Virus record (IMG/VR): IMGVR_UViG_3300010883_000239
Coordinates: 1-31,604 of that record
Direction: 5' to 3' (one strand)
DNA: 31,604 nucleotides
DNA from: a virus
The position numbers and the translations under genes were made by a program. Below, piece after piece: positions 8,294 through 29,491 of this stretch (the first letter of the stretch is position 1; every line of letters begins with the position of its first letter). The notes under the pieces are model-generated. The model had not been told where the DNA came from and did no database searches. It saw only the letters and a program-made list of their open reading frames with translations.

Positions 8294-8305
8294 AATATAC
8301 GAAAA
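8294..8305 (-). promoter_or_regulatory. TTTTCGTATATT element before the primase
   Basis: Exact 12-base element ending 5 nt before the primase ATG, identical to sites at 28918-28929 and 29462-29473. No Shine-Dalgarno sequence is present. TATATT could act as a -10 box, which would place the transcript start at or next to the ATG. Confidence 0.5.
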
Positions 8306-8324
8306 TTATTATTAAAAACAAACG

Positions 8325-8741
8325 TTATTTTAATATTTTTTCGTTATACCAAGCTTTAGGAATTGACTTATCTGCCCAAATTATATAATTTTTATTACAA
8401 AAATCTGCATATGTAGTTTTACTACCTTTACGTATTTTACCCTTGGAGTTTTGAAAAACTAGCCTGATATCTAATTTAGGGTGTTGTATTTTTATGAGTA
8501 AATGTTTTTTTCGATCCTCTAAAACCCAACGACCTTTAGTTTCAACTAATATACCATTTGGTAAAGTAAAATCTATTGTATATGTATGATTGGTTTCTGG
8601 TTTTATATATGGAATTACAGTTGTTTCGTATTCGAATTTAACTTTAGCTTCAGTCAGCTCTTTAGAGACGGTGTGTTCAAATCCACTTCTATAACCATGC
8701 TTGATAGCATTTGATCTTGCTTTTGATATTTTTCTTGCCAT
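8325..8741 (-). CDS. T7-type endonuclease I (Holliday junction resolvase)
   Basis: A 138-aa protein matching the phage T7 endonuclease I (gp3) family over nearly its whole length. Recognisable blocks are FEYET, NHTYTIDF, LPNGILVETKGRW, DRKKHLLI, QHPKLDIRLVF, YADFC and IWADK-IP. By alignment to the T7 active-site set, the catalytic residues are Glu22, Asp57, Glu67 and Lys69, all present. It would resolve branched DNA before packaging and during recombination. T4 and many relatives use endonuclease VII (gp49) instead, so this is a non-homologous replacement or an addition. It sits between the last tail structural gene and the primase. The leader carries a TATTTATTATAG element, and the upstream gene ends in a hairpin. 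Confidence 0.93.
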   Translation of the reverse strand: MARKISKARSNAIKHGYRSGFEHTVSKELTEAKVKFEYETTVIPYIKPETNHTYTIDFTLPNGILVETKGRWVLEDRKKHLLIKIQHPKLDIRLVFQNSKGKIRKGSKTTYADFCNKNYIIWADKSIPKAWYNEKILK

Positions 8742-8749
8742 AACGTTTA

Positions 8750-8761
8750 CTATAATAAATA
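8750..8761 (-). promoter_or_regulatory. TATTTAT-type element before endonuclease I
   Basis: Minus-strand TATTTATTATAG lies 8 nt before the endonuclease I ATG and overlaps the 3' arm of the hairpin at 8759-8775. It shares its core with the elements at 4170, 11922, 13935 and 23646. Confidence 0.3.
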
Positions 8762-8775
8762 GGTTATTTACCTAT
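8759..8775 (-). terminator. Hairpin at the end of the 1041-aa structural gene
   Basis: Minus-strand ATAGGT-AAATA-ACCTAT forms a perfect 6-bp stem with a 5-nt loop, followed by TTATTATAG. The TAA stop of the structural gene lies in the loop. It is a plausible weak intrinsic terminator or RNA 3'-end stabiliser separating the structural operon from the nucleic-acid genes. The following T-run is short. Confidence 0.5.
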
Positions 8776-11700
8776 CAAACCGCACTACAAACGTCATATC
8801 AACGTTTTGTAGTTTTTGAATTGGTTTAGCTAATTTAGCAACTGCTAGCATTCTACCAAACTCATCGTATAAACCAACTGTAGTTAGGTAAGGATTAAAA
8901 TCAGCTTTTGTAGCAAAATCCCTTAACTCTTCTGAATTTGTAACGTTACCACATTCATCTATTATAGGCTTTAGTAGAGTTGGGTTTAGCGACAGATTAA
9001 AATCAGAAGCTTTAGTATGACATTTAATTTTATGTTCGTATATACGTCTTGTATTTTTTAGCGATAATTTAAAGTTTTCACTAAATACAGCTGCTGATGA
9101 ATTACCAACAGTAGCAGTACCTTCATGTAAAGACCCGGAGAAGTATCTTGGATAATTTGTATTAGTTAATGATAATAATCCTTGTTCATAAAAAGTATTA
9201 CCTACTATATCTTCCTGATAAGCGGTTGATTCTTTCCAGCTATTATCGTATAATGATAACACTTGACCCTCAGTAAGAGAAGTATTATAAAATCGTATTT
9301 CGTCTAAAGAACCACTAAACGGTTTTACCGGGTAAGGAAAAGTATGAGTTATATTAGATCCAGTTACCCAACCTGAACCGTCATCTCCTAAGAATATATC
9401 TGATTTATTATCAGTGCACCCTAATGAGTCAACTACAGTTTTATCTAATTTACCATTAATCCAGAGATTAAGTACATCACCTGCTTTTTCTAATACTATA
9501 TGATTATCTACTAGCGGTGCTAATGGTAATGAAGATTCTAAAACTGTTAGCTTTTTACCATCTGAACGTCTTACAACTAAAGTGTTAATTTTATTACTTT
9601 CACAGTATTCTATATCTTCACCATCTTGTTGAAAGTGTGTATTTTTTAATTCAATATTATACGGGTATACATCGTTTACACCTTTATGTGAAAACTCTTC
9701 AAAATATTGCCCAGTAGCATTATTTAATTTTGATTCATTACTTAAACCAGTCTTAGTAAGTAAAGTTACATAGTCTCTACCTGCGGTTGAGCCTGATATC
9801 ATATTAAAGCATGGTATTCGTGTACCACCAGCGTTACCACCTGCTCCTGTAGTCTCATACCTTTCAGTTCTAAGAATTGTATTTATTCCTGGAATTTGAT
9901 TCTCAGGTATTTTTACCCAAAAACTTATTGCAAACCCTCTAGGGTGTCCTAAATTTAATTTAGTGTGGTGTGGTATTTTTATACTACCGCTATTATTAAA
10001 TTGAGCACGTATTCCTGATTTAACTGATGATTGATAGTAATTAATAGAATCAGCTGAGCGTATTGAACCGCTTTGTGCAAATACTGCTATACCTGGTGTA
10101 AATTTTACTTTATCAGATATACCATGATTTTTGTAAGTTGATAAATCTTTAACTTTGGTTGGACCTAAACCTTTATGTAATAGTATATCAGTAGATCCAC
10201 TTGTCTGATTTAAAATTGTAAATAATTCATTGAATCCATAATACCCTACTAAATTACTTTTACTAACAAAATTATTAGAATCTATACCTTTATCAATAAA
10301 ATTACCATACCCGTCATCTAATAAATCAAACGAAGCTGTCATTGGTGCTATCTGATCTAAACGTAAATATGGGTGATGGTATAAAGTAGTTAATTGTGTA
10401 TCCGTTAAAGAAGATTCGTAAAATCTAATATCATCCATAGAACCTGTAAATGCGTTCATTTTAGTATCAACTCCTGGATTAGTGGATAGTGCGGCTCCCA
10501 TAGAATAGGAACCAGATGCACCTACATATAAACTTCTGTCATACTGTATAGATGATGTTACTGCTCGATATATTTCGTTTGACCAAGAATGTGAAGGTAG
10601 ATTAGATGTACCGGGCTCTATTGATTGGGTAGCATAACCTACTCTTTTTATTACTGTATAACCTCGCTTGTTATTTGGATCAGGTCTAAATATACGTAAA
10701 GTAGTTCTAGCTGGGGAGTGACCCCATGGTGGTAGTTCTTGATATTGCGATCCAGATGTACCTAGATAAGCATCACCTGGCCAAAATTCTTGCTGTACAC
10801 TAACTAAGTTCCATGAACCGGTAGCTAAACCAAAACCTTTATCTATTGCACCTTGTATAGTACTATCTGTACTGTTTGACCCAGTTGCTCCCCAGAACAT
10901 TTGAAGGGGTAACAACCCTTTTGGATTATTAGTATAATCGTTAAAAGAACTTGTTAACATATTTAATTCAAAATATGAATTCTTATCTCGAGTAATAATT
11001 GTACTTTGACCAGGAGCTCCAGTTACTTTATTAGGCATTTCATTCCAATCTGGAGGTTTTACCCACATAGTAATATTATATACTGGCATACCATGTGAAG
11101 CGTTATTACCTAATGCTTGACCTCCTTCATAAGTCCACCAGTTAGTTACATTTGATCCTGTAAAATCGGTAGCTGGTTTTAATTGCAGCCCATTACCAGC
11201 ATTATAGGAGTGAGTAAGGTTACTGCCAGGTCTACCATTTATAGTATCATAAGCATGTACTTTAAACATAATACTACCAGTACCTACTAACGCTTGTGAG
11301 CCAGTTTGTATAGTAAACCCTGCACCTTCCGAAGGTATAGAGCTCGTTGCTTGTTGCAGTCGGGTAGTACCATATAAATCCACTAGACCACTTTGAGAGC
11401 TTTCAAATTCCCAATGATTAGCAATCAACGGTGGTGTATTGTATATTGTAGATGAAGCAGTAATAAATTTTTCACGATCTAATGGTAGAGTTTCTATAAA
11501 ATGATCTTTAAAAGAAATAGAACCAGATAGTATTCTGAGGTCGTATATTGTGGATGGTACAGAGATGATATGAGCTTTCTCTCCTAAAAACCGAGTTTCT
11601 TTTTCTGGTAAGTTACCACCAAAGTTTTTGTTTGGGTTATCAGGATTTTTATAATATAAATGATTTACACTATCATAAATAATACTTTTATATGTACCGT

Positions 11701-11893
11701 TTGTATTTAGAGATTCGTCTTCTAGTTTCTTACCACGTATAGGGTCACCAAAACTATAAGAGTGATAATTAGCACCTAATATTTGTACGCCATATGAACT
11801 ACTGTAAGTTGTTGCATCAAGAACATAATCCTTGTTTACATCAAACGGTGTAATTGTAATATCGTTGCTATCTATTTTTTTAAATACTGACAT
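8768..11893 (-). CDS. Large virion protein with two LamG/concanavalin-like domains
   Basis: A 1041-aa structural protein. Two jelly-roll (LamG/ConA-like) regions are recognisable, at about residues 200-500 and 610-880. Each contains a W-V-K-P/I strand (ITMWVKP; ISFWVKI) and ends in the hallmark FTGSMDDIRFYESSLTDTQL or FSGSLDEIRFYNTSLTEGQV. The last roughly 95 residues (DFNLSLNPT ... YLTTVGLY ... LAVAKLAKP ... VRFD) match the C-terminus of the upstream neighbour (11978-13225), indicating a shared virion-docking or oligomerisation module. LamG folds in phage tails commonly bind glycans, so a receptor-facing tail or baseplate role is inferred. It is preceded by a hairpin and followed by another, so it may form its own transcript. 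Confidence 0.85.
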   Translation of the reverse strand: MSVFKKIDSNDITITPFDVNKDYVLDATTYSSSYGVQILGANYHSYSFGDPIRGKKLEDESLNTNGTYKSIIYDSVNHLYYKNPDNPNKNFGGNLPEKETRFLGEKAHIISVPSTIYDLRILSGSISFKDHFIETLPLDREKFITASSTIYNTPPLIANHWEFESSQSGLVDLYGTTRLQQATSSIPSEGAGFTIQTGSQALVGTGSIMFKVHAYDTINGRPGSNLTHSYNAGNGLQLKPATDFTGSNVTNWWTYEGGQALGNNASHGMPVYNITMWVKPPDWNEMPNKVTGAPGQSTIITRDKNSYFELNMLTSSFNDYTNNPKGLLPLQMFWGATGSNSTDSTIQGAIDKGFGLATGSWNLVSVQQEFWPGDAYLGTSGSQYQELPPWGHSPARTTLRIFRPDPNNKRGYTVIKRVGYATQSIEPGTSNLPSHSWSNEIYRAVTSSIQYDRSLYVGASGSYSMGAALSTNPGVDTKMNAFTGSMDDIRFYESSLTDTQLTTLYHHPYLRLDQIAPMTASFDLLDDGYGNFIDKGIDSNNFVSKSNLVGYYGFNELFTILNQTSGSTDILLHKGLGPTKVKDLSTYKNHGISDKVKFTPGIAVFAQSGSIRSADSINYYQSSVKSGIRAQFNNSGSIKIPHHTKLNLGHPRGFAISFWVKIPENQIPGINTILRTERYETTGAGGNAGGTRIPCFNMISGSTAGRDYVTLLTKTGLSNESKLNNATGQYFEEFSHKGVNDVYPYNIELKNTHFQQDGEDIEYCESNKINTLVVRRSDGKKLTVLESSLPLAPLVDNHIVLEKAGDVLNLWINGKLDKTVVDSLGCTDNKSDIFLGDDGSGWVTGSNITHTFPYPVKPFSGSLDEIRFYNTSLTEGQVLSLYDNSWKESTAYQEDIVGNTFYEQGLLSLTNTNYPRYFSGSLHEGTATVGNSSAAVFSENFKLSLKNTRRIYEHKIKCHTKASDFNLSLNPTLLKPIIDECGNVTNSEELRDFATKADFNPYLTTVGLYDEFGRMLAVAKLAKPIQKLQNVDMTFVVRFDR

Positions 11894-11914
11894 ATAATTC
11901 TATTATATAATAAT

Positions 11915-11943
11915 AAACCCTCTATAATAAATATAAAGGGTTT
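11915..11943 (-). terminator. 12-bp hairpin between two structural genes
   Basis: The arms 11915-11926 and 11932-11943 form a 12-bp stem with a 5-nt loop, with AAACCC/GGGTTT at the base. On the minus strand the only imperfection is a G-U wobble. On the plus strand the same position is a C-A mismatch, so the fold suits RNA made in the gene direction. It is followed by ATTATTATATAAT. It lies between the stop at 11978 and the start at 11893. Likely an intrinsic terminator, or a processing site. Confidence 0.65.
11922..11933 (-). promoter_or_regulatory. TATTTAT-type element inside the hairpin
   Basis: Minus-strand TATTTATTATAG, identical over 12 bases to the site before endonuclease I, is embedded in the loop and 3' arm of the hairpin. 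It lies 28 nt upstream of the 1041-aa gene. A TATAAT sequence also lies closer to the ATG. Confidence 0.3.
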
Positions 11944-11977
11944 ATATATTTAGGCTATTATTCTAGTCAAGTAAATA

Positions 11978-13225
11978 TTAAAAATCAAGTTTAACCTTAA
12001 TAAGTGATTCACGGTCAAAAGATTTAATTAATGGTTTACTTAATTTAGCAGTTGCCAATAATTCCTGTCTATCATTATATAGTCCAACTGTTGTAATATA
12101 TGTTTTAGGATCTTTAATCATAGTTGGGTGACGTAATGCACCAAGAGATCCAGTTGAGAATGTAGGGTTATTACTAAAATTGTAATCTGCATTCTTAACA
12201 CGCACATAATAAAAAGTTGATGTAACTTCCTCTTCATTTCTAGCTGCGAAACCGTAACTTGAATTGTAGCTAGCTGCACCTGAGATAGCATTAAATAGCA
12301 TAGAGTTATACTGGTTATTAGTATTAGAAGCAGTAACAGTTCCTGTTGGTACTATACCACGCTCCTTAAGTCTACCTGGATTTAAAACGATTATACCTAG
12401 ATCAGGGTAAACTAATCCATAACCTCCAGTCACACCATCATCATCTGTAGTTACTTCACCTCCAGCGATTGTTCCACTGACTACACTATAAACACGTTGA
12501 CCGTCTTGTATAGTTGCGTCTTTACCACCACTGTTATCAATTAACTTAGTTATATTATGACCTAATGAAGTTGATCCTCCATTTGCACTACCACTTAAAA
12601 CTAACTCCCAGTTACCTGGATCAAGTTTTTCTTTAAGTCTAGCTCGTTGAAAGTTTATAGCTAGTATGTGTTCTTCATCTACTTTATTATCAAAAGTAAA
12701 TTTATTATCACCTGGAGCAAGAAGTAAATTTTTATATTGAGTGTATATTGCTTTAGTTGGATAATCTTCGTTAGTAATTACACTACCACTACCTTGCTTA
12801 TGACCATATGCAATTGCAAACTGTACTGAAGACCCTACTGCTACTGAAGAGCTATTGTAAACATCCCAGTAATATCTACCTGCATTAGAAGAGGTTTGAG
12901 CTGAAGCAGTATGGAAGGTTCCTATTTCACCTGTACCGTTGGACCAAATTCCTGCTGTTACCTTTTCCTTTCTATTTGATATGACATCGTTACCAACATC
13001 AAATCTTGAGTATATTTTACCTGTAGTAGTTTTTTGCTCTAATGCATCTCTTTCACGAACTATCTGAGTAGCTAGTTTTTGTGCTTCTCTTATGATAGCT
13101 CCTTGAGCTGAATCTTGAGTAGAAGGTAATCCGTCAGCTTGTCGCTTTTCTTCCTGAAGCTGATTTTTAATCGCTTCTACTTCTGCAAGTTCTTTTTCTA
13201 TTTGAGCTTTAGTTTTTTTAGCCAT
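11978..13225 (-). CDS. Virion protein with N-terminal coiled coil and shared C-terminal domain
   Basis: A 415-aa protein. Residues 1 to about 65 are charged and helical (MAKKTKAQIEKELAEVEA...), predicted coiled coil. The middle is Gly/Ser/Thr-rich beta-type sequence. The final roughly 80 residues (YNFSNNPTF ... YITTVGLY ... LLATAKLSKP ... VKLDF) are the same domain that ends the next gene (8768-11893). The start is preceded by an AGGGAATAAAA-type ribosome site. Being between other structural genes and sharing a domain with a LamG protein, it is inferred to be a tail or baseplate-attached appendage component. No enzyme motif is seen, and I do not recognise a T4 counterpart. Confidence 0.78.
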   Translation of the reverse strand: MAKKTKAQIEKELAEVEAIKNQLQEEKRQADGLPSTQDSAQGAIIREAQKLATQIVRERDALEQKTTTGKIYSRFDVGNDVISNRKEKVTAGIWSNGTGEIGTFHTASAQTSSNAGRYYWDVYNSSSVAVGSSVQFAIAYGHKQGSGSVITNEDYPTKAIYTQYKNLLLAPGDNKFTFDNKVDEEHILAINFQRARLKEKLDPGNWELVLSGSANGGSTSLGHNITKLIDNSGGKDATIQDGQRVYSVVSGTIAGGEVTTDDDGVTGGYGLVYPDLGIIVLNPGRLKERGIVPTGTVTASNTNNQYNSMLFNAISGAASYNSSYGFAARNEEEVTSTFYYVRVKNADYNFSNNPTFSTGSLGALRHPTMIKDPKTYITTVGLYNDRQELLATAKLSKPLIKSFDRESLIKVKLDF

Positions 13226-13240
13226 TTTTATTCCCTATTT

Positions 13241-13909
13241 TTAAAGATCACCACCTGATGTTGCGACTTGTTGTTTATTAACAGTTACTGTTACAGTTGC
13301 TCTACCACCAGTCTCGTTACCTATAATTGTTAAGGTAGCTGTTTTTGATTGTATTGGTTGATTCTTCGCTACTACTCTAAAGCTAAATCCAACTGCAGAA
13401 ACTGATTGAGCTGACTCATCATCTCCTACAAAAGTAGGAACCGTTGCTCCTTGCATTAATACACTTTTAACTGCAGTACCAACTTCTAGAAACGCTACAT
13501 CACTATTTGATAAAATAGCTGTATAACCTAGAGTTGAATTACCACCTTCAAAGTTAGAAGTATTTGGTGATACATCTACTGCATCTCCACCTGCTACTAA
13601 AGTAATTGTAGAGTTAGGTACTGTTATAACTGGTATACGTGTAGTACTTTTTCTTAAAGTTACTAACTTATACTTCATTGTTTGTGTTTCATCTGGAATA
13701 GCTTCTATTAATGGCATATTATCTATTGCAATACCGTAATAGTTGCTGCCAAGAGAGTGTGCTGGGTTCCATAATGAATAATCAATTTCGTCATCAGCTA
13801 GTGCAAATTGAGTGATTTTAAATTCATCAGCTCCTTTAGCTAAAATTTCACGTCCTTTCTTTGTAAGAATTGCGTCCACCGTAATTGATGTATTGTCTAA
13901 ATATCCCAT
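13241..13909 (-). CDS. Virion structural protein with C-terminal Ig-like region
   Basis: A 222-aa protein. The N-terminal half (MGYLDNTSITVDAILTKKGR ... ITQFALADDEIDYSLWNP ... YYGIAIDNMPLIEAIPD) looks like a compact conserved domain found in tail proteins of uncultured marine T4-like phages; this is from memory of the pattern and was not searched. Residues from about 99 to 212 are rich in V/T/S beta strands (SKTATLTIIGNETGGRATVTVTV) and read as an Ig-like fold. A ribosome site (AAAGGGAAAC) precedes the ATG. It follows the 1501-aa gene after a 65-nt gap carrying a TATTTAT-type element, and is separated by 15 nt from the next gene. Exact role unknown. Confidence 0.75.
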   Translation of the reverse strand: MGYLDNTSITVDAILTKKGREILAKGADEFKITQFALADDEIDYSLWNPAHSLGSNYYGIAIDNMPLIEAIPDETQTMKYKLVTLRKSTTRIPVITVPNSTITLVAGGDAVDVSPNTSNFEGGNSTLGYTAILSNSDVAFLEVGTAVKSVLMQGATVPTFVGDDESAQSVSAVGFSFRVVAKNQPIQSKTATLTIIGNETGGRATVTVTVNKQQVATSGGDL

Positions 13910-13934
13910 AATTGTTTCCCTTTATATTCTTTGT

Positions 13935-13946
13935 CTTTAATAAATA
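13935..13946 (-). promoter_or_regulatory. TATTTAT-type element before the 222-aa gene
   Basis: Minus-strand TATTTATTAAAG, 25 nt upstream of the ATG at 13909, in the 65-nt gap after the 1501-aa gene. Same core as the four other sites. Confidence 0.3.
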
Positions 13947-13974
13947 TGATTAAACATTAAAAACTGTTGTTTTT

Positions 13975-16900
13975 TTATTCAATAGTTAAGTTTCCTCTAA
14001 AAGAAGGATCAGAAGTTATAATTTGATTTGGATCCCCTATAGTAAATGAAACTACTGGACCTCTATCTGGAGTCTCAGTACTATCAATATTAAAATCTGG
14101 AGCTGTTATTTGAGTTCCAGCATGTCTTGTTCTATCTGTACCTGTTGTGCCACCTAAATTATAATCAGACACTCCGGCATAAACTAATGAATGACTGTAT
14201 GCATATTTGTTAAACGATCTTCCGTCTTCAAATGCTTTACCTAGTGAAGCACTCTTCATTGTGTCTAAAACTGAACCATTGCCTTTATAAAAATATTTAG
14301 TAGTTTTTCTAAATTCAGATTTACGGTAGTCACATATATGTAGGAAGCTTGCAGAAGAAATGTACCCAGGAGTTTTAACTTTAATATATGTTCCTGTGGC
14401 TGTATTGTATCCAGTAGATGATAAGCTTGAACTCTTTCGTAAACTTGTAAAGCTATACTGAGAGCCTGAAACTTGATTGGTTACCCTTAAGCTACCATTT
14501 ATAGGTTCTGCAGAAGATCCATTAGTGGGTGATACATATGACGAGTGACTAAAGAGAATATGTGAAGGTACTGTACTAGTAGTTCTTTGATTTTCACGCT
14601 CTTTAGCTGCTTGATATTCTAGTGAATTTTTTCCAAGGCTTTTTGCACTCTTATTAGATAGAGTTATAATCGGCGAATTACTTGATCCTATAACTCCATC
14701 AATTGTAGTTGTATTTTGAGTAAACTCTTGTTTAGCTAATTGTGTACTTTGCTGCGTAACTGCACTAAATGACTTCATTACTGAGTTGAGTGGAGATACT
14801 TGTTTAATATTAATCTTGAACGGCTTCTTTTGAGGTTTACCTATTTTAGCTACTAAAACTTGAGGAGGTAGTTGATACCCTAACTGAGTAACGCGTGGCT
14901 TATTAACAAGCGGTGAAGTTAGTTGCTGTACTTGTGCAACCTGTGCAGTTGTTCGAGCTATAGGAGCTGGACTACCATCTCCTGATATAGATATACGACC
15001 AGGTGGTGATATCTTAGAACGCTCTATAAAGTGTGGTTCTATAACTACACCTAAGTCTGCGTTAGCTCTAGCAGGTATAAGACGTTTAAGCATAGTAAAT
15101 AGCGACATATCATATAACTTTAATTCATTAAGATACGTCATCTGATTAATAGTTCTATTATACTTTTTCCAATATGTATTATTAAAATTAAATAAATCAA
15201 TATATTCTGATTCATATGCTTGTTTTGGGTCACCTATAAAATTGTCTAGCGGTGCTCTCCCGATATGGTCAAATATATCTTTATTAATTTGATCAGTAGG
15301 TGAGAAGTATATACCAAGATTGTTACTATCTAATGCATACTTATCACTACTTGGCTTTTCAGCACGACCTTCTGCAGATAGATGTCTAAGAAGTTTATTT
15401 TCTTCAGTTCTAACTTTATTACTAGTATAACTATTTGGACCTAATTCAGGTGTATTAATGAGGTAATATTCTTCTGTAAAATCATAAGGTAATGAATCAG
15501 GGTAATTTATAGTTGAACCTGATACAGAATATTCTTGAGAGCTATCCCAATATGTATATTTAGTACGTTGATCTGGTTGAACACTCATTATAGTTTTTGA
15601 AGATGTTTCTTTAGCTGCGCTACCTGAGTAATGATTTCCTTTATCACTTAATCTTAATCTTAATAATAAATTATTATATGAGTCTGTTGGTCCATTTGAA
15701 GAATAAACTTCAGTTGCTAATGTATGATCAATTAGAGCTGATTGTGATAGTGGGGTAGCATAATACCTCAATTCTTGCATAGAGCCACTAAATGGTATAC
15801 CAAACGCACCATGCTGTTGATGGTGTACATACGCTGAAGTTATGCTTGAAGTTACAAAGCCGCCTAAATATGCTCGTTTACCTGGTTCTAAACTACCTGA
15901 CCATGATTTATTTATAGAGCTTGAATAATAAGCATCACTCCCGGTTACAGTTAGACTACAAGATACTGATTGATCTATTACTTCATAATCTCCTCGTAAC
16001 GCTGTAAGCTCGTATTTAAAATTACTGCCTGTATGGTATGAACCTAGAGGGTGAGAATTTTTATTTGCATGACGATTTAATAATACAGTCCACCATCCAT
16101 GTCCAATTTGTTTATTATTAGTAGATTCAAATATCCTAGCTTTACCTGTTGAAGCAGATACATACCCTTCAGAGCTAGATAATATCATGCTGAAATGTCC
16201 AAAGTTGGTGAACCCTTCTAATCGACCTTCATGTATAGCATTAGAATGACTTCTATGTAATGTAATACCTAATTCATTGTTTACCTGCCAGATTGACTGA
16301 GTATGTGTACCAACAGTTGGTTCGGGCCAAACTCTAACTTCTACTGCATTAGGAGTAACATTACTAGACGTTACCCATCCAGCAGTTTTATGGTGAGGTC
16401 CCCAAAAAGTATCTACTGCTTGTTGTTGGTTAAAGTTTAAGCAATATTTAAAATTAGGTTCTTTATATAAAGTAGTTTGTTCACTTTTTTTACTCGAACC
16501 ATATTCATGTATAGGTAAAATATCTTCTGGTATACCGTAGCAGTTTATTAAACTACGTACACCTGTTATTGTGCCTTTGCTTTTTAATAATAAAGGTAAA
16601 TTATTTACTATACGTTTCCATGTTTCAGCTGTTCTCTGTTGAGCAGTCATAGTTCGTATCGATGCAGTAGGAGAGCTTTGTATAGAGAACCCATTTTCAG
16701 TTTTACCTAATTTATACTCCCAAAGTTCTTGATTTGGATCTCCTGTGATTAAATCTATACCATAAGATTTTCCAACATGGTAAACTAAATCATCAGATAT
16801 ACCTTGCTTGTTTTCGAAATTAGTATTATGTAAACGGTTATTAATCTCAGTAAAGTATTTAGTATAAGTCCATGATACATCATGAGATTGAGCAACTAAA

Positions 16901-20767: not shown

Positions 20768-20777
20768 TTTATAGCTC

Positions 20778-22664
20778 CTAGATTGATACTACACGACCTT
20801 TGATATCTGAATTTGGATATTTAATTTCAAATATACTAGGATCAAGTGATGGGTAAATTACTTGATTTCGTGTCGCTTGATTAATGTCGTAAATATTACC
20901 AGAGTAACCTGATTGTACGTCCTGAAGATTAAAAACTTCAATTTTTACAATACTTTGTAGTCCCATTATAGTAGAGAGCTCAGTATATAGATCTGATAAT
21001 ATTATCGGTTGATTTATTTGCCAGTCATCAATATTAAAAAATTGTTGAACTCGTTTTATAGATTTCAATAATACATCATTACTATTAAATCCTGGTAGAG
21101 TTAGTATTTCAAAATCTACTCCAACATTTATAATGTAAGCATTTTTAATAGTAACTGAATCAGTTAGCAGTCTATACGGGCTTAAGTAGTTTTTAATATT
21201 TTCTTTAGTTGCTGGGTTAGTTTTTACCAGCGATTTATTTGCATCATACGAAAGGGTGTATAGACTTACTGCAAAAGGATTCCTTAATCTATTATTAGTA
21301 TCACTTACATTTAATTTTTCATCTTGAGTTGCATATGCTTTTGCTACCGAACCGTAACTGCTTGGCATAGTCATAGTACGTATCATATAATCATCTTTAC
21401 TTACTACACGACCTTGAGCATTAAAAAATGCTAATGCGTTATCACGTACTTCATCTGCAGTTTCTGCTCCTCTACCTCCTTGAGCTGGTACTGGATTGGT
21501 AGCAGCTACTGATTTTTTAGTATTGTTAAAAAGTAATCTATCTAAACCTGCTCCTTCATTAGTAAAATTAATACTATCTATATCAGTTATTTCACCACTT
21601 GCAACATTATCCTTAATACCATTACCAATGGTATATTCAACTGTTATAACTGTACTATATGGTGCTTCACCGTATGCTTTAGTATACATAAAGTTGGAGG
21701 GGTCTATAAATTGGTTACTTGTAGGTGTTACTGTTGGTAGAGCTGAACCTGCGTTTTTAGGATTAGGTATAACTTCTTCATCAGGTTGAGTCGATGTACC
21801 TGGACCAAATTCTAGTACATATTTACCATCTTCTCGTACCCTTGAAGTAAATCGTTTTGATGTCTTTTTTAACTTAAGTAAGTATGGAGTTTCTTGATTA
21901 TAAACTGTTAAATTTGGATCAATATATTGATCGTTTTGTACTTGCTTAAACACTGTATCTTGCGCTATAAAAGGTACTTCAGTCCACTCTCTACCTGATG
22001 AGTCTGTAACTTTAATAATTTCTATAATATTAGCTCTAGCTAATGCAAGTTGTAAAAATGGTTGAACTGAACCAACTTGAAATGTTTCTATTACAGGGGT
22101 ACCTGATTGAAATCCTGCCTGCTTTCTTAAAAGATAGAATGTAGGATCACCTGTAGAATCATCTGTAGAAAATATAGATATTTCAGTAGGGTTAGTTGAT
22201 CCTGATACTGTAAAATCTACAGGTAGGTTACGTCTATAAACTGTGCCGTTAGCTGCGCGAACTTTCATACCACCTTTTATCGAGAGAGCATAACTGTAAT
22301 CAGGTCTATTGTTTATACCAGCTCCTTTTGCAGGAACTGTTTGAAATATATCTACATCTACGTTAGCAGCAATAGCTTGTTTTGGTTTATAACCAAGAGC
22401 TTGAGCTAAAGATATAACATTTTTCCGTTCAGTTGCATATGGTAATAAAGTTTCTTTAAATTGTTTATCTAGATAAAAACTTAAAACATCCCCTACATAA
22501 GCAGTTGTTTCAAGAAACATCATACCAGGAGATGCTTCGTTAAAGTCATTAAAGGTTGTTGGGTAATACGTTTTCGCAAAATTTAATAAATTTTTACGGA
22601 TAGTAGGAAAATCCTTACCAGTATATTTAATGTCTTTGCTTATTTTTTTATTTATAGATGCCAT
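20778..22664 (-). CDS. gp6: Baseplate wedge protein gp6
   Basis: A 628-aa protein, close to T4 gp6 in length. The N-terminal block YTGKDFPTIRKNLLNFAKTY ... DFNEASPGMMFLETTAYVGDVLSFYLDKQ is the conserved start of gp6/baseplate-J-like wedge proteins. The centre has the conserved region AETADEVRDNALAFF...QGRVVSKDDYMIRTMTMP, and the C-terminus the VGVDFEILTLPGFN...ITEL type segment. It builds the inner baseplate ring with gp25 and gp53/gp7 in T4. It lies 7 nt after gp25 with AGGAA before the ATG, so order and coupling match T4-like tail operons. Confidence 0.92.
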   Translation of the reverse strand: MASINKKISKDIKYTGKDFPTIRKNLLNFAKTYYPTTFNDFNEASPGMMFLETTAYVGDVLSFYLDKQFKETLLPYATERKNVISLAQALGYKPKQAIAANVDVDIFQTVPAKGAGINNRPDYSYALSIKGGMKVRAANGTVYRRNLPVDFTVSGSTNPTEISIFSTDDSTGDPTFYLLRKQAGFQSGTPVIETFQVGSVQPFLQLALARANIIEIIKVTDSSGREWTEVPFIAQDTVFKQVQNDQYIDPNLTVYNQETPYLLKLKKTSKRFTSRVREDGKYVLEFGPGTSTQPDEEVIPNPKNAGSALPTVTPTSNQFIDPSNFMYTKAYGEAPYSTVITVEYTIGNGIKDNVASGEITDIDSINFTNEGAGLDRLLFNNTKKSVAATNPVPAQGGRGAETADEVRDNALAFFNAQGRVVSKDDYMIRTMTMPSSYGSVAKAYATQDEKLNVSDTNNRLRNPFAVSLYTLSYDANKSLVKTNPATKENIKNYLSPYRLLTDSVTIKNAYIINVGVDFEILTLPGFNSNDVLLKSIKRVQQFFNIDDWQINQPIILSDLYTELSTIMGLQSIVKIEVFNLQDVQSGYSGNIYDINQATRNQVIYPSLDPSIFEIKYPNSDIKGRVVSI

Positions 22665-22671
22665 GTCTTTC

Positions 22672-23624: not shown

Positions 23625-23645
23625 GTTTTCCTCTAAATATACTTT

Positions 23646-23659
23646 ATCATATATAAATA
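23646..23659 (-). promoter_or_regulatory. TATTTAT-type element before the 173-aa/gp25/gp6 group
   Basis: Minus-strand TATTTATATATGAT lies about 21 nt upstream of the ATG at 23624, in the 66-nt gap after the 198-aa gene. Resembles the site at 4170. It would mark a new transcript for the gp25-gp6 block if it is a promoter. Confidence 0.35.
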
Positions 23660-23690
23660 TAACTATTACTAAATTGTCGGTTAAAAAACC

Positions 23691-24287
23691 CTACGATACT
23701 CCCATCCATGGTATAGGAGTAGGTACCGGTCCTGCAGGTGTTGGTACAAGACCAGTATATAGTCCAGATATCATGGTTAAATGTTGTGTGAATCCTGATA
23801 CTAATATTCCTGCAATTGCTGCACAATTATTTGAGTGAAATGCATCATGTATAGATGATGCTAATGCAGGTATTGCTCCTAATCCAGGATCTAATTGTGT
23901 TACCCCAGGTGCAGGTGCTACAGTTGGTGGGTGTGGTGGGACAGGTTGATATTGAACTGCTGCCCAGGCATTAACTGTGCCAGTTGCTGCAGCTATCCAA
24001 ACTGGTACACCAATATCTATACCTTCAGGTGGAGCTCCAGCTGCTTGAAATTGTTGAGCAAATGAAGCTTCAAATCCCGATTGCATAGTTGACTTAAGCC
24101 ATCCACTTGAGACTAAATTACCTGGAACTGTTATCCCTGCTGTCTTTATAGCTAATTCGTATTCATCTGCTATCTTTTTAGCGGTTGGTCTACCAGCTGC
24201 TTGATAATCTTCATCACCGTCTCCTTTTGCGTTACCACAAAACCATGAGTTCATCTGTGCTGTAAATGCTGGCCATAATGCTGGCAT
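23691..24287 (-). CDS. Unknown Gly/Ala/Pro-rich baseplate-region protein
   Basis: A 198-aa protein starting MPALWPAFTAQMNSWFCGNA, with two mainly helical regions (about 30-95 and 140-175) separated by a proline-rich linker (QPVPPHPPTVAPAPG), and a PTPAGPVPTPIPW tail. Three Cys are visible, but no zinc pattern. It begins 13 nt after the gp5-like gene, with GGAG before the ATG, and is inferred to be part of the hub or tail tip. T4 has a small PAAR tip protein (gp5.4) near this place; I see no convincing PAAR signature here. Confidence 0.72.
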   Translation of the reverse strand: MPALWPAFTAQMNSWFCGNAKGDGDEDYQAAGRPTAKKIADEYELAIKTAGITVPGNLVSSGWLKSTMQSGFEASFAQQFQAAGAPPEGIDIGVPVWIAAATGTVNAWAAVQYQPVPPHPPTVAPAPGVTQLDPGLGAIPALASSIHDAFHSNNCAAIAGILVSGFTQHLTMISGLYTGLVPTPAGPVPTPIPWMGVS

Positions 24288-24300
24288 ATATTATCTCCTA

Positions 24301-25758
24301 TTATCCATTTCTTTGTACCCAAACTGTATCACTATAGCTAGTAGCTAGCGAAGCTTTTAATGTCGCTATATCTGTCTGTTGTGTTGCGTACTGAGGTGCT
24401 TGTATTGGTGGGCCTGATGGTCCAACAGGTGTTGGATGTATCTCTGATTGTAGAGTTGTTAACATTGCATCTATAATATCACACAGAGTACTTTTCCATA
24501 AATCATCTTCATCACCTAAAACTAACGGGTGACCTTTAGTTGCTTGAGTTGCACCTACCCCTCCATCATCTTCAGATTGCTGTGACTTACCTAAGTATAT
24601 AAGTGGTGCTTCTATTTCTAGCTTTTCAGTTGCATTTAAATATATTGATGGGGTATCAACTAATAGCTCGCTTCCTGCATCAATTGTCATATCAGTTTCT
24701 GTTGTTAAGCCTATACCACCTCCACCAAAAATGTATGTGCCTGCTTCACGACTATTAAATACTAACCTATTAGAAGTTAATAATATCTGCCCTTGACGCT
24801 CACCCTCTTCATCAATTAAATCATCTGTCGTAGGTGCTGTAAGATCTTCTCCTACTGTATTTTCGCCTGCTTCAAAAGATAATGCATCATATTTAGTAGA
24901 GCCAAAAGTTAATGGGATAGTCTGTCCTTTAGTCATCCAAATAGAACCTGCCTCTGTATCTGGGTCTTCAATTACATGCTCACCACCATCTTCAAGATCT
25001 TGATCCTGTCCGTTGCGGATTATAATTAAAGGTTCAGCTGGATCATTAGTAGATGGATCTGACCATAAATTTGGTACATCTGGATCTTGAACTGCTGAAC
25101 CAAATCGTATAGAGTGACCAAACCTACCTTCAACTGTTATATCACCTTCATATGGCTGTATTGGTCGTATGCGCGGCTGCTCTTTAAAAGTTCTACCGTA
25201 TTCAATATCGCTACCTTCATCACCCGCTATATTAGGATTGCCAAATCCTACTTCTTTATATTCAGCTATCTTATCTGCTTGAGCTGAATCTGGGTTAGGA
25301 TCAGGTATACTTAAAAATGGTAATGAATTGTGGTGAATTGAGCCCCACATATTAAGAATATCATGATAATACATTTGTGTACTATCTGCTACGTCAACTG
25401 AAGATTTATCACAATATGATGTTATTAAAACTATTTCATGTATAAGAGGGTACTGTTTAAAATTACGGGTTAAAGGTACTGCCCAACTTAAATTTTCTAC
25501 ATCCTCAACATTAGCATCACTAAATAATCTTCTAACTTGAATTGTACCAATCTGCTCTTCTGGATCTGGAATAGATGCATCATAGTTTGGATGGGAGGGG
25601 TTAAGTACTATATCTATTACCTCTGCAGGCTCAGTTTGAATATCTTCAACTTTAAGATTTTGTTGAAAATCTACATCATTCTGAGTAATAGGAGCTTGAG
25701 GTCCATAAGGACGATAAGATTTACCTTTATTATTTCTTACCCTTGAGTATGCGGCCAT
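24301..25758 (-). CDS. gp5: gp5-like baseplate hub/spike protein lacking a lysozyme domain
   Basis: A 485-aa protein. After a polar N-terminus come OB-like strands (IHEIVLITSYCDKSS), then GDITVEGRFGHSIRFGS, typical of gp5/VgrG-type hubs. After this (about 225-395) comes a chain of short strands (PLIIIRNGQ, SIWMTKGQTIPLTFGSTKY, GQILLTSNRLVFNSRE, IGLTTETDMTIDAG, IYLNATEKLEIEAPLIYLGK) characteristic of the trimeric beta-helix spike. The T4 central muramidase domain is absent, as in many marine T4-like hubs. The C-terminus is a proline-containing tail. It overlaps the preceding 131-aa gene by 29 nt. Confidence 0.85.
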   Translation of the reverse strand: MAAYSRVRNNKGKSYRPYGPQAPITQNDVDFQQNLKVEDIQTEPAEVIDIVLNPSHPNYDASIPDPEEQIGTIQVRRLFSDANVEDVENLSWAVPLTRNFKQYPLIHEIVLITSYCDKSSVDVADSTQMYYHDILNMWGSIHHNSLPFLSIPDPNPDSAQADKIAEYKEVGFGNPNIAGDEGSDIEYGRTFKEQPRIRPIQPYEGDITVEGRFGHSIRFGSAVQDPDVPNLWSDPSTNDPAEPLIIIRNGQDQDLEDGGEHVIEDPDTEAGSIWMTKGQTIPLTFGSTKYDALSFEAGENTVGEDLTAPTTDDLIDEEGERQGQILLTSNRLVFNSREAGTYIFGGGGIGLTTETDMTIDAGSELLVDTPSIYLNATEKLEIEAPLIYLGKSQQSEDDGGVGATQATKGHPLVLGDEDDLWKSTLCDIIDAMLTTLQSEIHPTPVGPSGPPIQAPQYATQQTDIATLKASLATSYSDTVWVQRNG

Positions 25759-26125
25759 TATCTACACCCTTAATTTTTTCATCTATGTTAGAGTTACCCT
25801 TCTCAATTGCATTTAATTCCTCAAGTAACTGTTTTTTTTCTTCTTCGGATATACCAAAATCACTCTCACCTGGAGCTCCACTACCTATAAGTCGTTGAAT
25901 CACTGCTAGCAATTTTGCTAGCTGATCATCGTTTTTTACACTTACTTCTAAATAATCCTTTATCAATGGTACTATAATAGTTGCATCACCAATATTTTTT
26001 ACAAACGGCTTTAGTTCTGAAATTAATAAGTTTATCTGAGATTCCTTTTTCTTAGGAGCTCCGTATAAATCTTTTGCTATATCAGCAAAACTCTTACCTT
26101 TAAATATGTCACTATCTTTATCCAT
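25730..26125 (-). CDS. Small unknown protein between gp55 and gp5
   Basis: A 131-aa, largely helical, charged protein (MDKDSDIFKGKSFADIAKDL ... LIKDYLEVSVKNDDQLAKLLA ... EEEKKQLLEELNAIEKG). No signal peptide, membrane segment or motif. It starts 9 nt after the gp55 stop and its end overlaps the start of the gp5-like gene by 29 nt, so translation of the two is linked. A tail-related chaperone or assembly role is possible but unproven. Confidence 0.7.
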   Translation of the reverse strand: MDKDSDIFKGKSFADIAKDLYGAPKKKESQINLLISELKPFVKNIGDATIIVPLIKDYLEVSVKNDDQLAKLLAVIQRLIGSGAPGESDFGISEEEKKQLLEELNAIEKGNSNIDEKIKGVDNGRILKGKK

Positions 26126-26134
26126 ATATAATAA

Positions 26135-26962
26135 TTAGAAATATTTCGAATTTTGTTTACTAGAGCTAGTAAAAGTATTATCAAGACGACCAGTAATCTG
26201 ATATTCTTCCCACATCTCACGATATATGCGTTTCATTTGATTCACTACCTTTGTTATATACTGAGTTTTAACATTAGCCATTTCACGTATCATAATATAT
26301 AAAGCTTTTTTATTATAAATTTCTATATTCTCTCTACGTCTAAATAACTCAGCTATAGCTGCTGCTACTCGTATATCCTTTTTACGTGTAAATAAAACAT
26401 TAAGATTGTTATCCCAGTATTCTACCATTAGATCAGTAAAATCTTTTCGAGCTTCTTTAATATCCTCTCGCACTATCTCATTTGTAATATTACGGTTAAT
26501 ATCAATTGAATCTACCGTAGTACGTTGCTTCATTTTTTTATAATTCTCATTATTATTATAAATCAAATAATTTTTTGCAACTATACTAAAATACGAGTAT
26601 GCTTTAGATCCTTTAGTTGGATCGAATTTATCTATTTTTTCAATAAGGTATGCAACTACTTCAGCTTGAACGTCTACATAAGGATCATCAAAGCAATAGA
26701 ATTTAAAAGTGTGTATAATATTTTCAGTAAGCTTCATAAATGGTTTATGAATATGTTGTGAATATACCCTATTGCGCAGGTTATAATCCGGCTCGATATT
26801 ATAAGCAATTATAGCGCGTTCATTCTCTTCGTGAAAATAACCACGTCGTTTTTTTGCTTTAGTTGCTTTACGTTCTTTCTCGAACTCTCCATGCCATACA
26901 TAAAACTCCTGTACTGGTGATAGGCTAGCGCTTGTCTGTGGTTGTAGTTGTGGTTGTGTCAT
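26135..26962 (-). CDS. gp55: Late-transcription sigma factor gp55
   Basis: A T4 gp55-type sigma factor, which binds host RNA polymerase and directs it to late promoters. Matching blocks: NERAIIAYNIEPDYNLRNRV, KLTENIIHTFKF, VQAEVVAYLIEKIDKFDPTK and KAYSYFSIVAKNYLIYNNN, the sigma region 2-like core. The frame also has an ATG at 26989, but only the ATG at 26962 has a strong ribosome site (GGAG at 26969-26972, 6 nt spacing), giving 275 aa beginning MTQPQLQPQT. The first 38 nt overlap the end of the 101-aa gene in another frame. Basic tract KKRRG near residue 38. The gp33/gp45 partners are not in this window. Confidence 0.93.
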   Translation of the reverse strand: MTQPQLQPQTSASLSPVQEFYVWHGEFEKERKATKAKKRRGYFHEENERAIIAYNIEPDYNLRNRVYSQHIHKPFMKLTENIIHTFKFYCFDDPYVDVQAEVVAYLIEKIDKFDPTKGSKAYSYFSIVAKNYLIYNNNENYKKMKQRTTVDSIDINRNITNEIVREDIKEARKDFTDLMVEYWDNNLNVLFTRKKDIRVAAAIAELFRRRENIEIYNKKALYIMIREMANVKTQYITKVVNQMKRIYREMWEEYQITGRLDNTFTSSSKQNSKYF

Positions 26963-27230
26963 CTTCTTCTCCAAGTGTGTTGAGCTCATTTATTATACGT
27001 TTAAATTCTTTATAAAAATAACCCACCTCGTCATCAGACTCGAAAGATCCTTTATGGTCTATCTTTTTTATTTCTTTGTTCATATTAGTTATCGTTTTAC
27101 TAAACCGATTAACCCATGACTCTAAATTCTCTATATATTCCTCACCTTGTTCGTATTTACGTAACAAGTTATAAATTACAAATAAGGACCCAATAAGAGC
27201 TAGTGATAGTAATATAATAGTTATTATCAT
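26925..27230 (-). CDS. Small membrane-anchored protein
   Basis: A 101-aa protein with one N-terminal hydrophobic helix (residues about 2-22, IITIILLSLALIGSLFVIYN), followed by charged, coiled-coil-like sequence and a seven-threonine run before TDKR at the end. Topology resembles an N-terminally anchored protein with a cytoplasmic tail. Its ATG overlaps the stop of the HD-domain gene by 4 nt (ATGA), and its tail is encoded by the same DNA as the gp55 start. Function unknown; possible membrane-associated or spanin-like role is not supported by a lipobox. Confidence 0.72.
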   Translation of the reverse strand: MIITIILLSLALIGSLFVIYNLLRKYEQGEEYIENLESWVNRFSKTITNMNKEIKKIDHKGSFESDDEVGYFYKEFKRIINELNTLGEEDDTTTTTTTDKR

Positions 27231-28039
27231 TTGAACAACTCATCAAATAATTTACTAGCATCAGTACCAGTATTAAGCTCTGATTTCACCTTCTTCTTTA
27301 AAGGTGGTTTAACTGCTACAGGCTTCTTTACTACATGTTCCATCATTTTATCTTTTGGTACATCTGTTAATGTACGATTACCTTGTAATCCATTCTCACC
27401 ATACTTCCATCGCTCCCACTCTACTCTAGAAGCCATCATATCAGCCTGATGTAAAATCAAAGGTAAATTTGAACGTAATCTAGAATAGGGATTAAAACTA
27501 ACTAAATAAGGTTTGTTTGCTTCTTCATACATACCATCGTGAATACGTATTCCTAAAAACTCATTCCAGGAGTACTTAATACCAAAATGTTGTAATAGAA
27601 ATAAGCTTCTATCTGGAACTAAACTAAATTCTGTTTTAGGGTTCACCGTATATAAAGCTCCTTGATTCTTTCTATGCCATTCAGACTCATTGGGTACGTA
27701 AGTATCATTTTCTAAATCACCTACTTTACCTAAGTCGTGATTAAGTGCAGCAAACATTAGCTCTTCAACTGAGTAGTTATCAGTATGCGCACCTTGCATC
27801 ATCCAAGAGTTATAAAGATCAAATGCGCAATCCATAACACGTAAGACATGATCTACATACCCTCCTGCGAAACAATTGTGATAATGCTCTCTCGAGCTTG
27901 CTGGAGCAAACATCATCCTGTCTGCAAAATGATTATACATCTCCAGAAGCTTCTCTTGACGTTCTCCGCTGAATTGGTGATTAATACGACCTATTAAGTC
28001 ATCCCAGTTTCCTTTAATTTGTTTTTCGTTTAATTTCAT
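27227..28039 (-). CDS. HD-domain metal-dependent phosphohydrolase
   Basis: A 270-aa protein with an HD-domain pattern: His64 (GGYVDHVLRV), His101-Asp102 (NHDLGKVGD), further His151 and His167, and Asp200 (HQADMMASR). These correspond to the metal ligands of HD phosphohydrolases, which cleave nucleotides or related phosphate esters. The exact substrate cannot be read from the sequence. A Lys/Pro-rich tail (KKPVAVKPPLKKKVK) follows from about 238. It starts 2 nt after the ClpP-like gene and overlaps the next gene by 4 nt. HD proteins of this type are common in marine T4-like phages, possibly for nucleotide-pool control. Confidence 0.85.
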   Translation of the reverse strand: MKLNEKQIKGNWDDLIGRINHQFSGERQEKLLEMYNHFADRMMFAPASSREHYHNCFAGGYVDHVLRVMDCAFDLYNSWMMQGAHTDNYSVEELMFAALNHDLGKVGDLENDTYVPNESEWHRKNQGALYTVNPKTEFSLVPDRSLFLLQHFGIKYSWNEFLGIRIHDGMYEEANKPYLVSFNPYSRLRSNLPLILHQADMMASRVEWERWKYGENGLQGNRTLTDVPKDKMMEHVVKKPVAVKPPLKKKVKSELNTGTDASKLFDELFK

Positions 28040-28041
28040 AT

Positions 28042-28698
28042 TTAATGTATTATTCCATCGATAACGCCCAGCTTTTGAGCATCTTTAGATGAAAGGTAAA
28101 GGTCAGTTTTAGTTTGTTCTGACCAGAATTTTTTATCTTTAGTTGTTTTCTCTCCTAGAATAGAATTAGCCATATCTTCTAGATGAGCATTATATTTATG
28201 TGCTGCTTTAAGGTCAGATGATTTACCTGCCTGCATAGAAGATCCTTCATGTATCATTATAGTTGATCGCTTACTAGCTAACCTTTTACCAGTACCACAA
28301 GCTAGAATCATAGCTGCAGCACTCATAGCTTTCCCTCTACATATAGTGTTAACCTTAATATTACTATTACATTCTAGACTTTCAATATAATCAATTATAC
28401 CAAACATCTCATAGACATCACCACCTACTGAATCTATAATTACATTAATAGGTGAATCATCACCATCTTCTCTGTTTTTAATTATAGCGCGACATCTTAC
28501 CATAAAATCATATAAACCAAAATCTTCTATCTCACCTACTATGTAAACAACACTATCTTCTACATCTACTGCGAATTCAATTTCTTTATAAAGATGTTTC
28601 TTTTCTAAATCATCTTCGTAATATACTTCTTCTTCAGAGGTATTCTCTTTACCTGAAACTTTATTCTCTTCATAACTACCATACATACTTTGCGACAT
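28042..28698 (-). CDS. clpP: ClpP-like serine protease
   Basis: A 218-aa protein with an acidic about 40-residue extension, then a ClpP/crotonase-like fold. DSVGGDVYEMFGIID (about 89-103) matches the conserved S-P-G-G loop. Ser126 (GKAMSAAAMILAC), His150 (STIMIHEGS) and Asp199 (TKTDLYLSSKDAQKLGVID) give the full catalytic triad. Length is close to bacterial ClpP. No ClpX-like unfoldase is seen here, so it would use a host chaperone or act alone. It starts 2 nt after the 69-aa gene (AAAGGG before the ATG). Possible roles: selective proteolysis in the host, or maturation of phage proteins. No capsid genes are nearby to support prohead processing. Confidence 0.9.
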   Translation of the reverse strand: MSQSMYGSYEENKVSGKENTSEEEVYYEDDLEKKHLYKEIEFAVDVEDSVVYIVGEIEDFGLYDFMVRCRAIIKNREDGDDSPINVIIDSVGGDVYEMFGIIDYIESLECNSNIKVNTICRGKAMSAAAMILACGTGKRLASKRSTIMIHEGSSMQAGKSSDLKAAHKYNAHLEDMANSILGEKTTKDKKFWSEQTKTDLYLSSKDAQKLGVIDGIIH

Positions 28699-28700
28699 GT

Positions 28701-28910
28701 TTACCCTTTTAATATTTGTTTTAATTTATCTAACGGTTGTGCTTTACCTTCAAACGCTTCTTCTACACTAATACTATCGTAACCTAATGCGCAAGCTAGA
28801 TGTTTGCATACCCTTTTAAAGTCATGTATACTTACATTCTCATTAACATCTAACTCAACTTTTTGTATTTCATTAGAATAGGTACCTCGTGTGTATATTA
28901 GTTTATCCAT
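28701..28910 (-). CDS. Small unknown protein (69 aa)
   Basis: A 69-aa, soluble, mixed-charge protein (MDKLIYTRGTYSNEIQKVEL ... HDFKRVCKHLACALGYDSIS) with no recognised motif. Its start is preceded at 7 nt by the TTTTCGTATATT element rather than a Shine-Dalgarno site. It is followed after 2 nt by the ClpP-like gene, so it may lead that operon (69-aa, clpP, HD, 101-aa, gp55). Confidence 0.7.
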   Translation of the reverse strand: MDKLIYTRGTYSNEIQKVELDVNENVSIHDFKRVCKHLACALGYDSISVEEAFEGKAQPLDKLKQILKG

Positions 28911-28917
28911 ATTGTAT

Positions 28918-28929
28918 AATATACGAAAA
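28918..28929 (-). promoter_or_regulatory. TTTTCGTATATT element before the 69-aa/clpP operon
   Basis: Exact copy of the 12-base element also found at 8294 and 29462. It ends 7 nt before the ATG at 28910 and lies in the only gap (31 nt) between the 170-aa gene and this operon, as expected of a promoter. Confidence 0.5.
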
Positions 28930-28941
28930 ATTAATTTAAGA

Positions 28942-29454
28942 TCAAACTAATTTAATTTTTAATTTACGACTTAATTTTTTAATTTGGGATTCGATAGACT
29001 TTATGTCTTTCTTTAGGGTAGCTTTCTTAAGCTGTTTTTTAAGATCATATAATGCAGCCATCGAAGTTCTCTTCTGAGCTTCACGCTCACGTTTAGTTGA
29101 TCGCTTTTTATCTTTCTTAGATTCAATAACAGTAGCCGGGAATTTACCTTTTAATTCTGGATGCTCTTTTCCTTTACGAAATACATTACCATCTTTATCT
29201 ACAAACTCGTTCATCCATTGCCAACCTTTTGGTCGACCAGTTGGTTTATACCTCGGAGTAAACTTAGGTGGTTCTGTGACTCTATTAACGCAACGGTGAC
29301 ATAAAACTGCGGTAGTAGTGCTCGTAACATTAACCCACTCACCACAGTATTTACCTGTCCAATACTTACCACCTTCAATACTGTTTCGACAAATCATCCA
29401 AGATTCACCATCTTCAATATAACTCTTATAAACTGTTTTAGTATCCCGTTCCAT
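28942..29454 (-). CDS. Unknown basic protein with four cysteines
   Basis: A 170-aa protein. Cys22, Cys37 and the pair Cys52/Cys55 (LCHRC) could form a zinc site. The middle (TGRPKGWQWMNEFVDKDGNV) is Trp/Gly-rich, and residues from about 112 onward are extremely Lys/Arg-rich and helical (SKKDKKRSTKREREAQKRTS). It may bind nucleic acid, which is an inference from charge and cysteines only. A TTTTCGTATATT element precedes it by 7 nt, without a Shine-Dalgarno site. Confidence 0.7.
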   Translation of the reverse strand: MERDTKTVYKSYIEDGESWMICRNSIEGGKYWTGKYCGEWVNVTSTTTAVLCHRCVNRVTEPPKFTPRYKPTGRPKGWQWMNEFVDKDGNVFRKGKEHPELKGKFPATVIESKKDKKRSTKREREAQKRTSMAALYDLKKQLKKATLKKDIKSIESQIKKLSRKLKIKLV

Positions 29455-29461
29455 ATAATTA

Positions 29462-29473
29462 AATATACGAAAA
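29462..29473 (-). promoter_or_regulatory. TTTTCGTATATT element before the 170-aa gene
   Basis: Exact third copy of the element, preceded by a long T-run on the minus strand. It ends 7 nt before the ATG at 29454, in the 37-nt gap after the membrane-protein gene. Confidence 0.5.
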
Positions 29474-29491
29474 AAAAATTAGTTAACCAAC

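Follow-up and report, generated by a model that had tools for sequence, protein, structure and literature searches.

A probable bipartite, Bacteroidota-type promoter set close to start codons in a lineage of T4-like phages

How do genes begin when a short, exactly repeated element stands where a Shine-Dalgarno (SD) site would be expected? The question is raised by the virus record IMGVR_UViG_3300010883_000239 from IMG/VR, a 31.6-kb record of a T4-like phage, of which we analyzed positions 1 to 31,604 (hereafter, the window). The 12-base element TTTTCGTATATT occurs exactly three times in the window, always on the minus strand, which is the coding strand, and ends 5, 7, and 7 nt before an ATG (coordinates in Table 1). 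Depending on the Markov model (order 1 to 3), only 0.016 to 0.024 exact copies are expected on both strands. When two mismatches were allowed, the scan of the window returned 14 sites for 10.8 expected from shuffles. Since this count is at chance level, the near-exact element alone is special. An earlier note, made from the sequence of the window, had described these three copies and the lack of an SD motif before the three ATGs, and we confirm both. It went on to suggest that the element replaces the SD site and that, if TATATT is a -10 box, it belongs to a phage-specific early/middle promoter class producing leaderless mRNA. The best explanation, to which we give a probability of about 0.8 as a whole, differs in part: the 12-mer would be the extended -7 half of a larger bipartite promoter, GTT(T/G)G-N13-TTTTCGTATATT, read by a polymerase of the Bacteroidota type and yielding leaderless messages at some genes.

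The upstream half was absent from the earlier note, which had the 12-mer only. At the three sites of the window, and in all relatives that have retained a site, the block GTT(T/G)G precedes TTTTCGTATATT at a distance of exactly 13 nt. Across 24 distinct sites of close relatives, aligned on the 12-mer, G-T-T is invariant at positions -18 to -16 from it, followed by T or G and then mostly by G. Numbering TATATT as -12 to -7 places GTTKG at -36 to -32 and TTTTCG at -18 to -13, and all of these 24 sites have GTT(T/G)G or a close variant at -36 to -32. In a set of 29 viral sites chosen independently of TTG, this triplet occupies exactly position -17 in 25 and is nearly absent from other positions. 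The site recurs in close relatives before orthologous genes, on the coding strand every time. A matrix scan of the close contigs revealed more sites in the 80-kb relative G012, which are intergenic and on the coding strand with hardly any exception; a subclass resembling AGTTGGTAGTCTGAGATATTTTTCTTATCTT precedes genes with leaders in this genome. The most enriched intergenic 8-mer is TTTTCGTA, and 28 of its 29 occurrences on the coding strand are intergenic. The window also has a candidate fourth promoter, diverged but with the same spacing, with counterparts in relatives (G001:4694 and G012:58501).

Right after the ATG, second codon positions vary by 0.01-0.02 and third positions by 0.23-0.25 in the families of the primase-like gene (9 relatives) and of the gene encoding a 69-amino acid (aa) protein (14 relatives); the contrast is weaker in the family of the 170-aa protein (12 relatives), with 0.14 and 0.25, respectively. 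This pattern supports the ATGs behind the promoter as true start codons, less firmly for the 170-aa gene. For the primase-like gene, the mechanical call of the open reading frame begins at a TTG at 8321, whereas conservation begins at the ATG at 8288. Promoter and ATG are separated by 5-8 nt, with a spread of no more than 1 nt inside each of the three families. The same arrangement is found before the UvdE gene of G012 (42281-43324; Pfam E 3e-55), where the promoter ends 6 nt before the ATG, and at the same distance before UvdE-like genes of other loci (L129, L143, L145, L205, and L240), identified as such by sequence resemblance only. As a side observation, the primase-like frame has 206 aa in the window and 306 aa in relatives, and a separate frame of 86 aa lies just downstream (7369-7629, minus strand). 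Hence, the gene looks interrupted in the window record.

This close arrangement is one of two. Of 113 distinct viral sites, 18 have their next ATG at 5-8 nt, 2 at 9-13 nt, and 79 at 14-60 nt, and 14 have none nearby; among 29 unselected viral sites, the ATG is 6-7 nt away in 9 and 17-35 nt in 11. The position 4-10 nt before an ATG, whose enrichment the earlier note had named as support for its reading, is one arrangement; the promoter also stands 17-60 nt before genes. At the longer distance the gene would receive an ordinary leader. At 5-7 nt, as for the three genes of the window, transcription would start at the A of the ATG or within 1-2 nt of it, and the resulting leaderless mRNA would be translated without an SD site. 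Gaps of 5, 6, and 7 nt leave 3, 4, and 5 nt between the 8-nt -7 element and the A of the ATG, within 1 nt of the 4-5 nt published for Flavobacterium johnsoniae between the -7 element and the start (PMC6847099). The predicted 5' ends lie 4-5 nt after TATATTNN, which in the clade of the window would be at the ATG of the primase-like, 69-aa, and 170-aa genes. The leaderless or near-leaderless transcripts of the earlier note are therefore predicted by the geometry for these three genes, via a putative -7 element rather than a sigma-70 -10 box.

Which polymerase would read such a promoter? The F. johnsoniae promoter has the form TTTG/TAnnTTTG, with T-12, A-11, T-8, T-7, T-6, and G-5 (PMC6847099). 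We propose that GTTKG at -36 to -32 acts as the -33 element and TATATT at -12 to -7 as the -7 core, that TTTTCG at -18 to -13 is an extension enriched in phages, and that the likeliest reader is the RNA polymerase of the host carrying the primary sigma factor of Bacteroidota. The motif with its constant spacing, its conservation, its placement before supported start codons, and its occurrence in a cultured Flavobacterium phage are observations, from which we deduce its role as a promoter, the sigma factor, the precise start, and the translation of the leaderless mRNA. The proposal of a promoter class belonging to a phage group thus stands, with TATATT best read as a Bacteroidota -7 element that has a -33 partner. 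The evidence on the host points in the same direction. The cultured phage immuto, propagated on Flavobacterium sp. LMO8, shares the element and its spacing: at most intergenic sites, a TTG stands exactly 19 nt ahead of TTCGTAT(A/C)TT. Leaders there measure 20-32 nt, and one of these sites precedes the primase gene of immuto. The relative G012 encodes a Por secretion (type IX secretion system, T9SS) sorting domain (E 3e-16, above the curated cut-off) that no control genome has above this cut-off, and the host is therefore very probably a member of the Bacteroidota. We also observed that the primase gene of Microcystis phage Mel-JY01 (PP395634.1; L311:2900-2960) is preceded, at about 3 nt from the annotated ATG, by a textbook Bacteroidota promoter, TTGC followed by TATATTTG, a finding that casts doubt on the cyanobacterial host recorded for this phage. 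In a scan of GTDB, 45 of 63 hits were in Bacteroidota.

Several observations weigh against this reading. The match to the -7 element is partial: TAnnTT is present in all sites, but the final TG of TAnnTTTG, common among the hits in host genomes, is rare in the phage clade (TATATTAT, TATATTTA). The TTTTCG extension showed no clear enrichment in the few host genomes examined, nor did TTTTCGTANNTTTG as a general host promoter in 11 genomes. Given this, and the restriction of the promoter to a single phage lineage, a phage-encoded factor might contribute. About 19 of the 45 Bacteroidota hits in GTDB lie inside long open frames, which makes that scan weak support. Finally, one argument in favour of the reading is weakened: SD-like motifs in the close contigs precede 1 of the 30 genes directly behind the promoter and 159 of the 282 others (P 4e-9), but the low rate near the promoter is partly built in, because a gap of 5-7 nt leaves no room for such a motif.

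These points bear on who reads the element, and a first alternative would make it a phage-specific promoter, recognized by a phage-encoded sigma factor or activator along a route like that of T4 gp55 or MotA, its likeness to host promoters being coincidental. The concentration in one T4-like lineage and an extension that is not a general host feature would be expected if so, and the window itself encodes a protein with a weak match to sigma-70 region 2 (Table 1). Yet both halves and their spacing, apart from the mostly missing TG, equal those of the host primary promoter, and a role as late promoter better fits a second intergenic motif, ATATTTAT, found before structural genes. T4 late promoters lack a -35/-33 partner; the element differs from their core (TATAAATA) and has a fixed upstream partner. 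Nor does its geometry fit that of a T4 middle promoter, with a MotA box near -30, although the motA gene was not searched for. We regard a phage-encoded reader as unlikely. The class "early/middle" cannot be assigned in any case, as in relatives the promoter precedes terminase, hsp20, bS21, and UvdE genes as well as the primase gene.

An ordinary sigma-70 promoter of a host outside Bacteroidota, such as a cyanobacterium or Pelagibacter, with TATATT as its -10 box, would fit the SD sites found on many structural genes, which are unusual for Bacteroidota, and the one related phage record that gives Microcystis as host. However, the sigma-70 layout (TTGACA about 17 nt before TATAAT) is not seen at the element: ACA is not conserved and TTG stands about 20 nt from TATATT. 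Sigma-70-like sites between 28000 and 31604 are no commoner than in shuffles. The sorting domain of G012 and the presence of the motif in a phage grown on Flavobacterium also speak against it, and the primase gene of the "Microcystis" phage itself lies behind the Bacteroidota-type promoter described above, so that we consider such a host promoter highly improbable. Harder still to believe is that the element serves translation initiation, standing in for the SD site on the mRNA while the actual promoter lies farther away; in this sense it would not replace an SD site. The near-constant 5-7 nt to the ATG at orthologous genes is what a translation signal would predict. But the same element stands 17-60 nt from other start codons, and 88-89 nt from that of hsp20, and it has a partner block at exactly 13 nt on its upstream side.

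Proteins encoded in the window include a baseplate wedge protein resembling gp6 (20778-22664), which has counterparts in T4-like phages, and SbcC- and SbcD-like, primase-like, endonuclease, and prohead protease proteins. Relatives of the wedge protein are encoded at 53 viral loci. The nearest isolates are Mel-JY01 and Flavobacterium phage immuto, with 47% and 38% for the wedge protein and 40% and 38% for the primase. The promoter is present in at least 119 IMG/VR stretches, and is thus not private to one phage but common to a large T4-like lineage. The idea that unrelated phages share it was rejected, as 103 of the 118 loci analyzed have at least two proteins in common with the T4-like set. 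The promoter is common to a large group of marine T4-like phages, very probably infecting Bacteroidota. Among 23 related phage records searched, 9 have a permuted (two-piece) transfer-messenger RNA (tmRNA) gene (Rfam RF04321, all over the gathering score): G012 (54754-54962), G001, G007, G014, G015, G016, G018, G022, and G023. ARAGORN gives the tags GEHVEMAMAA and GEQVEMAMAA in two records.

The use of SD sites differs between parts of these genomes. In G012, SD-like motifs precede about 70-75% of the genes in the structural regions (38 of 52; 0-28 and 59-79 kb) and 8 of the 39 genes of the accessory region (28-53 kb; P 7e-7), and they peak at the proper distance. For comparison, gene-based SD rates are 5% in immuto and 3-10% in three sampled Flavobacteriales genomes, which corresponds to background, the positive controls giving 57-64%. 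A sampled genome of the same phylum (G049) reaches 50%, on 12 genes only, and an SD-using Bacteroidota host is therefore possible. An earlier measure, exact AAGGAG-N6-ATG counts, gave 43 against 6 in the control for Lactobacillus and 43 against 12 for Arcticimaribacter; as it failed to separate SD users from non-users, it was replaced by the gene-based counts with positive controls. F. johnsoniae ignores SD sites because bS21, bS18, and bS6 hold the tail of the 16S rRNA (PMC9976891), and myoviruses of Bacteroidetes carry bS21 (PMC9723584). In the relative G011, the bS21 gene (G011:46273-46686; L093:6673-7086) lies 34 nt behind a copy of the promoter described here and lacks an SD site; its product had no match among isolated phages. 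A link between the SD split and bS21 is a hypothesis. In an SD-ignoring host, two programmes of translation start might operate: one in which promoters of the host type yield leaderless or SD-less messages, and one of structural messages with SD sites, favoured once bS21 is lost from the ribosomes or exchanged late in infection. We hold this to be doubtful; if true, the clade of the window would offer a natural test of whether a phage switches ribosomes through bS21.

The window ends upstream within the hsp20 gene, whose surroundings in relatives gave further observations. A conserved non-coding stretch after the promoter site was considered as a small RNA and rejected, as it is the 89-nt leader of hsp20; it has no match in Rfam and its folding is unremarkable (z -0.75). 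In relatives, an 11-nt inverted repeat brackets the hsp20 gene, with TGCGGGTCAGC in the leader and GCTGACCCGCA or GCTGGCCCGC behind the gene. In G006, a similar promoter lies directly before a gene of 76 aa that elsewhere follows hsp20. This is the picture that the gain or loss of an hsp20 cassette at that place would leave. As for the second motif, words resembling ATATTTAT show an intergenic enrichment, with 34 of 52 occurrences, and precede structural genes, in the window before positions 8741, 11893, 13909, and 23624, which makes this motif a candidate late promoter.

Table 1. Putative promoter elements and associated genes in the window (all on the minus strand).
Feature	Position	Strand	Remarks
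TTTTCGTATATT, putative extended -7 element	8294-8305	-	5 nt before ATG (8288) of primase-like gene
GTTTG, putative -33 element	8319-8323	-	same promoter as 8294-8305
TTTTCGTATATT, putative extended -7 element	28918-28929	-	7 nt before ATG (28910) of 69-aa gene, which heads the prohead-protease gene run
GTTTG, putative -33 element	28943-28947	-	overlaps stop codon of upstream gene
TTTTCGTATATT, putative extended -7 element	29462-29473	-	7 nt before ATG (29454) of 170-aa gene
GTTGG, putative -33 element	29487-29491	-	
Candidate fourth promoter, GTTGC ... TTTAATTATATT	31103-31132	-	diverged, same spacing; long AT-rich leader, then 57-aa gene 30802-30975
DNA primase-like gene, predicted leaderless	7668-8288	-	PHROG 47 E 1.5e-21, TIGR01391 E 1.5e-6; start by codon-position conservation
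69-aa conserved protein, predicted leaderless	28701-28910	-	start confirmed in 14 relatives; no PHROG or Pfam match
170-aa lysine-rich protein, predicted leaderless	28942-29454	-	start supported in 12 relatives; no PHROG or Pfam match
Possible phage sigma-like protein, weak sigma-70 region 2 match	26135-26989	-	E 0.0057 and 0.0013, below curated cut-offs; candidate link to promoter
Region with the C-terminal part of phage hsp20	31389-31399 and 31410-31604	-	upstream end of window

These results would provide a sequence rule to locate transcription starts in a large and mostly uncultured group of T4-like phages. They also bring independent evidence that this group infects Bacteroidota, and predict specific leaderless phage genes. 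Together, the promoter and the split between SD-less and SD-led genes make the steering of SD-ignoring ribosomes by phages testable in cultured Flavobacterium phages.

The element can be compared with several known systems. Like the early, middle, and late promoters of T4, it recurs across a T4-like genome as a series of short conserved promoters, but it lacks TATAAATA, the geometry of the MotA box, and TTGACA. It resembles the promoter of the Bacteroidota primary sigma factor (sigmaABfr; -33 TTTG, -7 TAnnTTTG) in the TTTG-like block at -36 to -32, in TAnnTT at -12 to -7, in the predicted distance to the start, and in its presence in Flavobacterium phages. It differs by the strongly conserved TTTTC(G/T) at -18 to -13, by the mostly absent terminal TG, and by a -33 element that is far more conserved than in F. 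johnsoniae, whose promoters scarcely show one (PMC6847099). Leaderless messages are already known as a minority in flavobacteria: they account for 5.5% of the mapped mRNAs in F. psychrophilum (PMC9723704), and 13% of the mRNAs of F. johnsoniae have leaders of 10 nt or less (PMC6847099). As there, the phage promoter is set so that the start would fall at or next to the AUG; in the phage clade, where the starts are predicted, this arrangement is kept at orthologous genes and recurs before the UvdE-like genes of several phages. In the literature searched, no relevant work turned up on phage promoters in Bacteroidota or on leaderless genes of their phages, and the text describing the bS21-encoding T4-like phages of freshwater Bacteroidetes mentions neither promoters nor leaderless genes (PMC9723584). 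These phages are, like those studied here, aquatic myoviruses of Bacteroidota, and the relative G011 has bS21 downstream of terminase and portal-like genes; what sets the clade of the window apart from them is the presence of SD sites on most of its structural genes.

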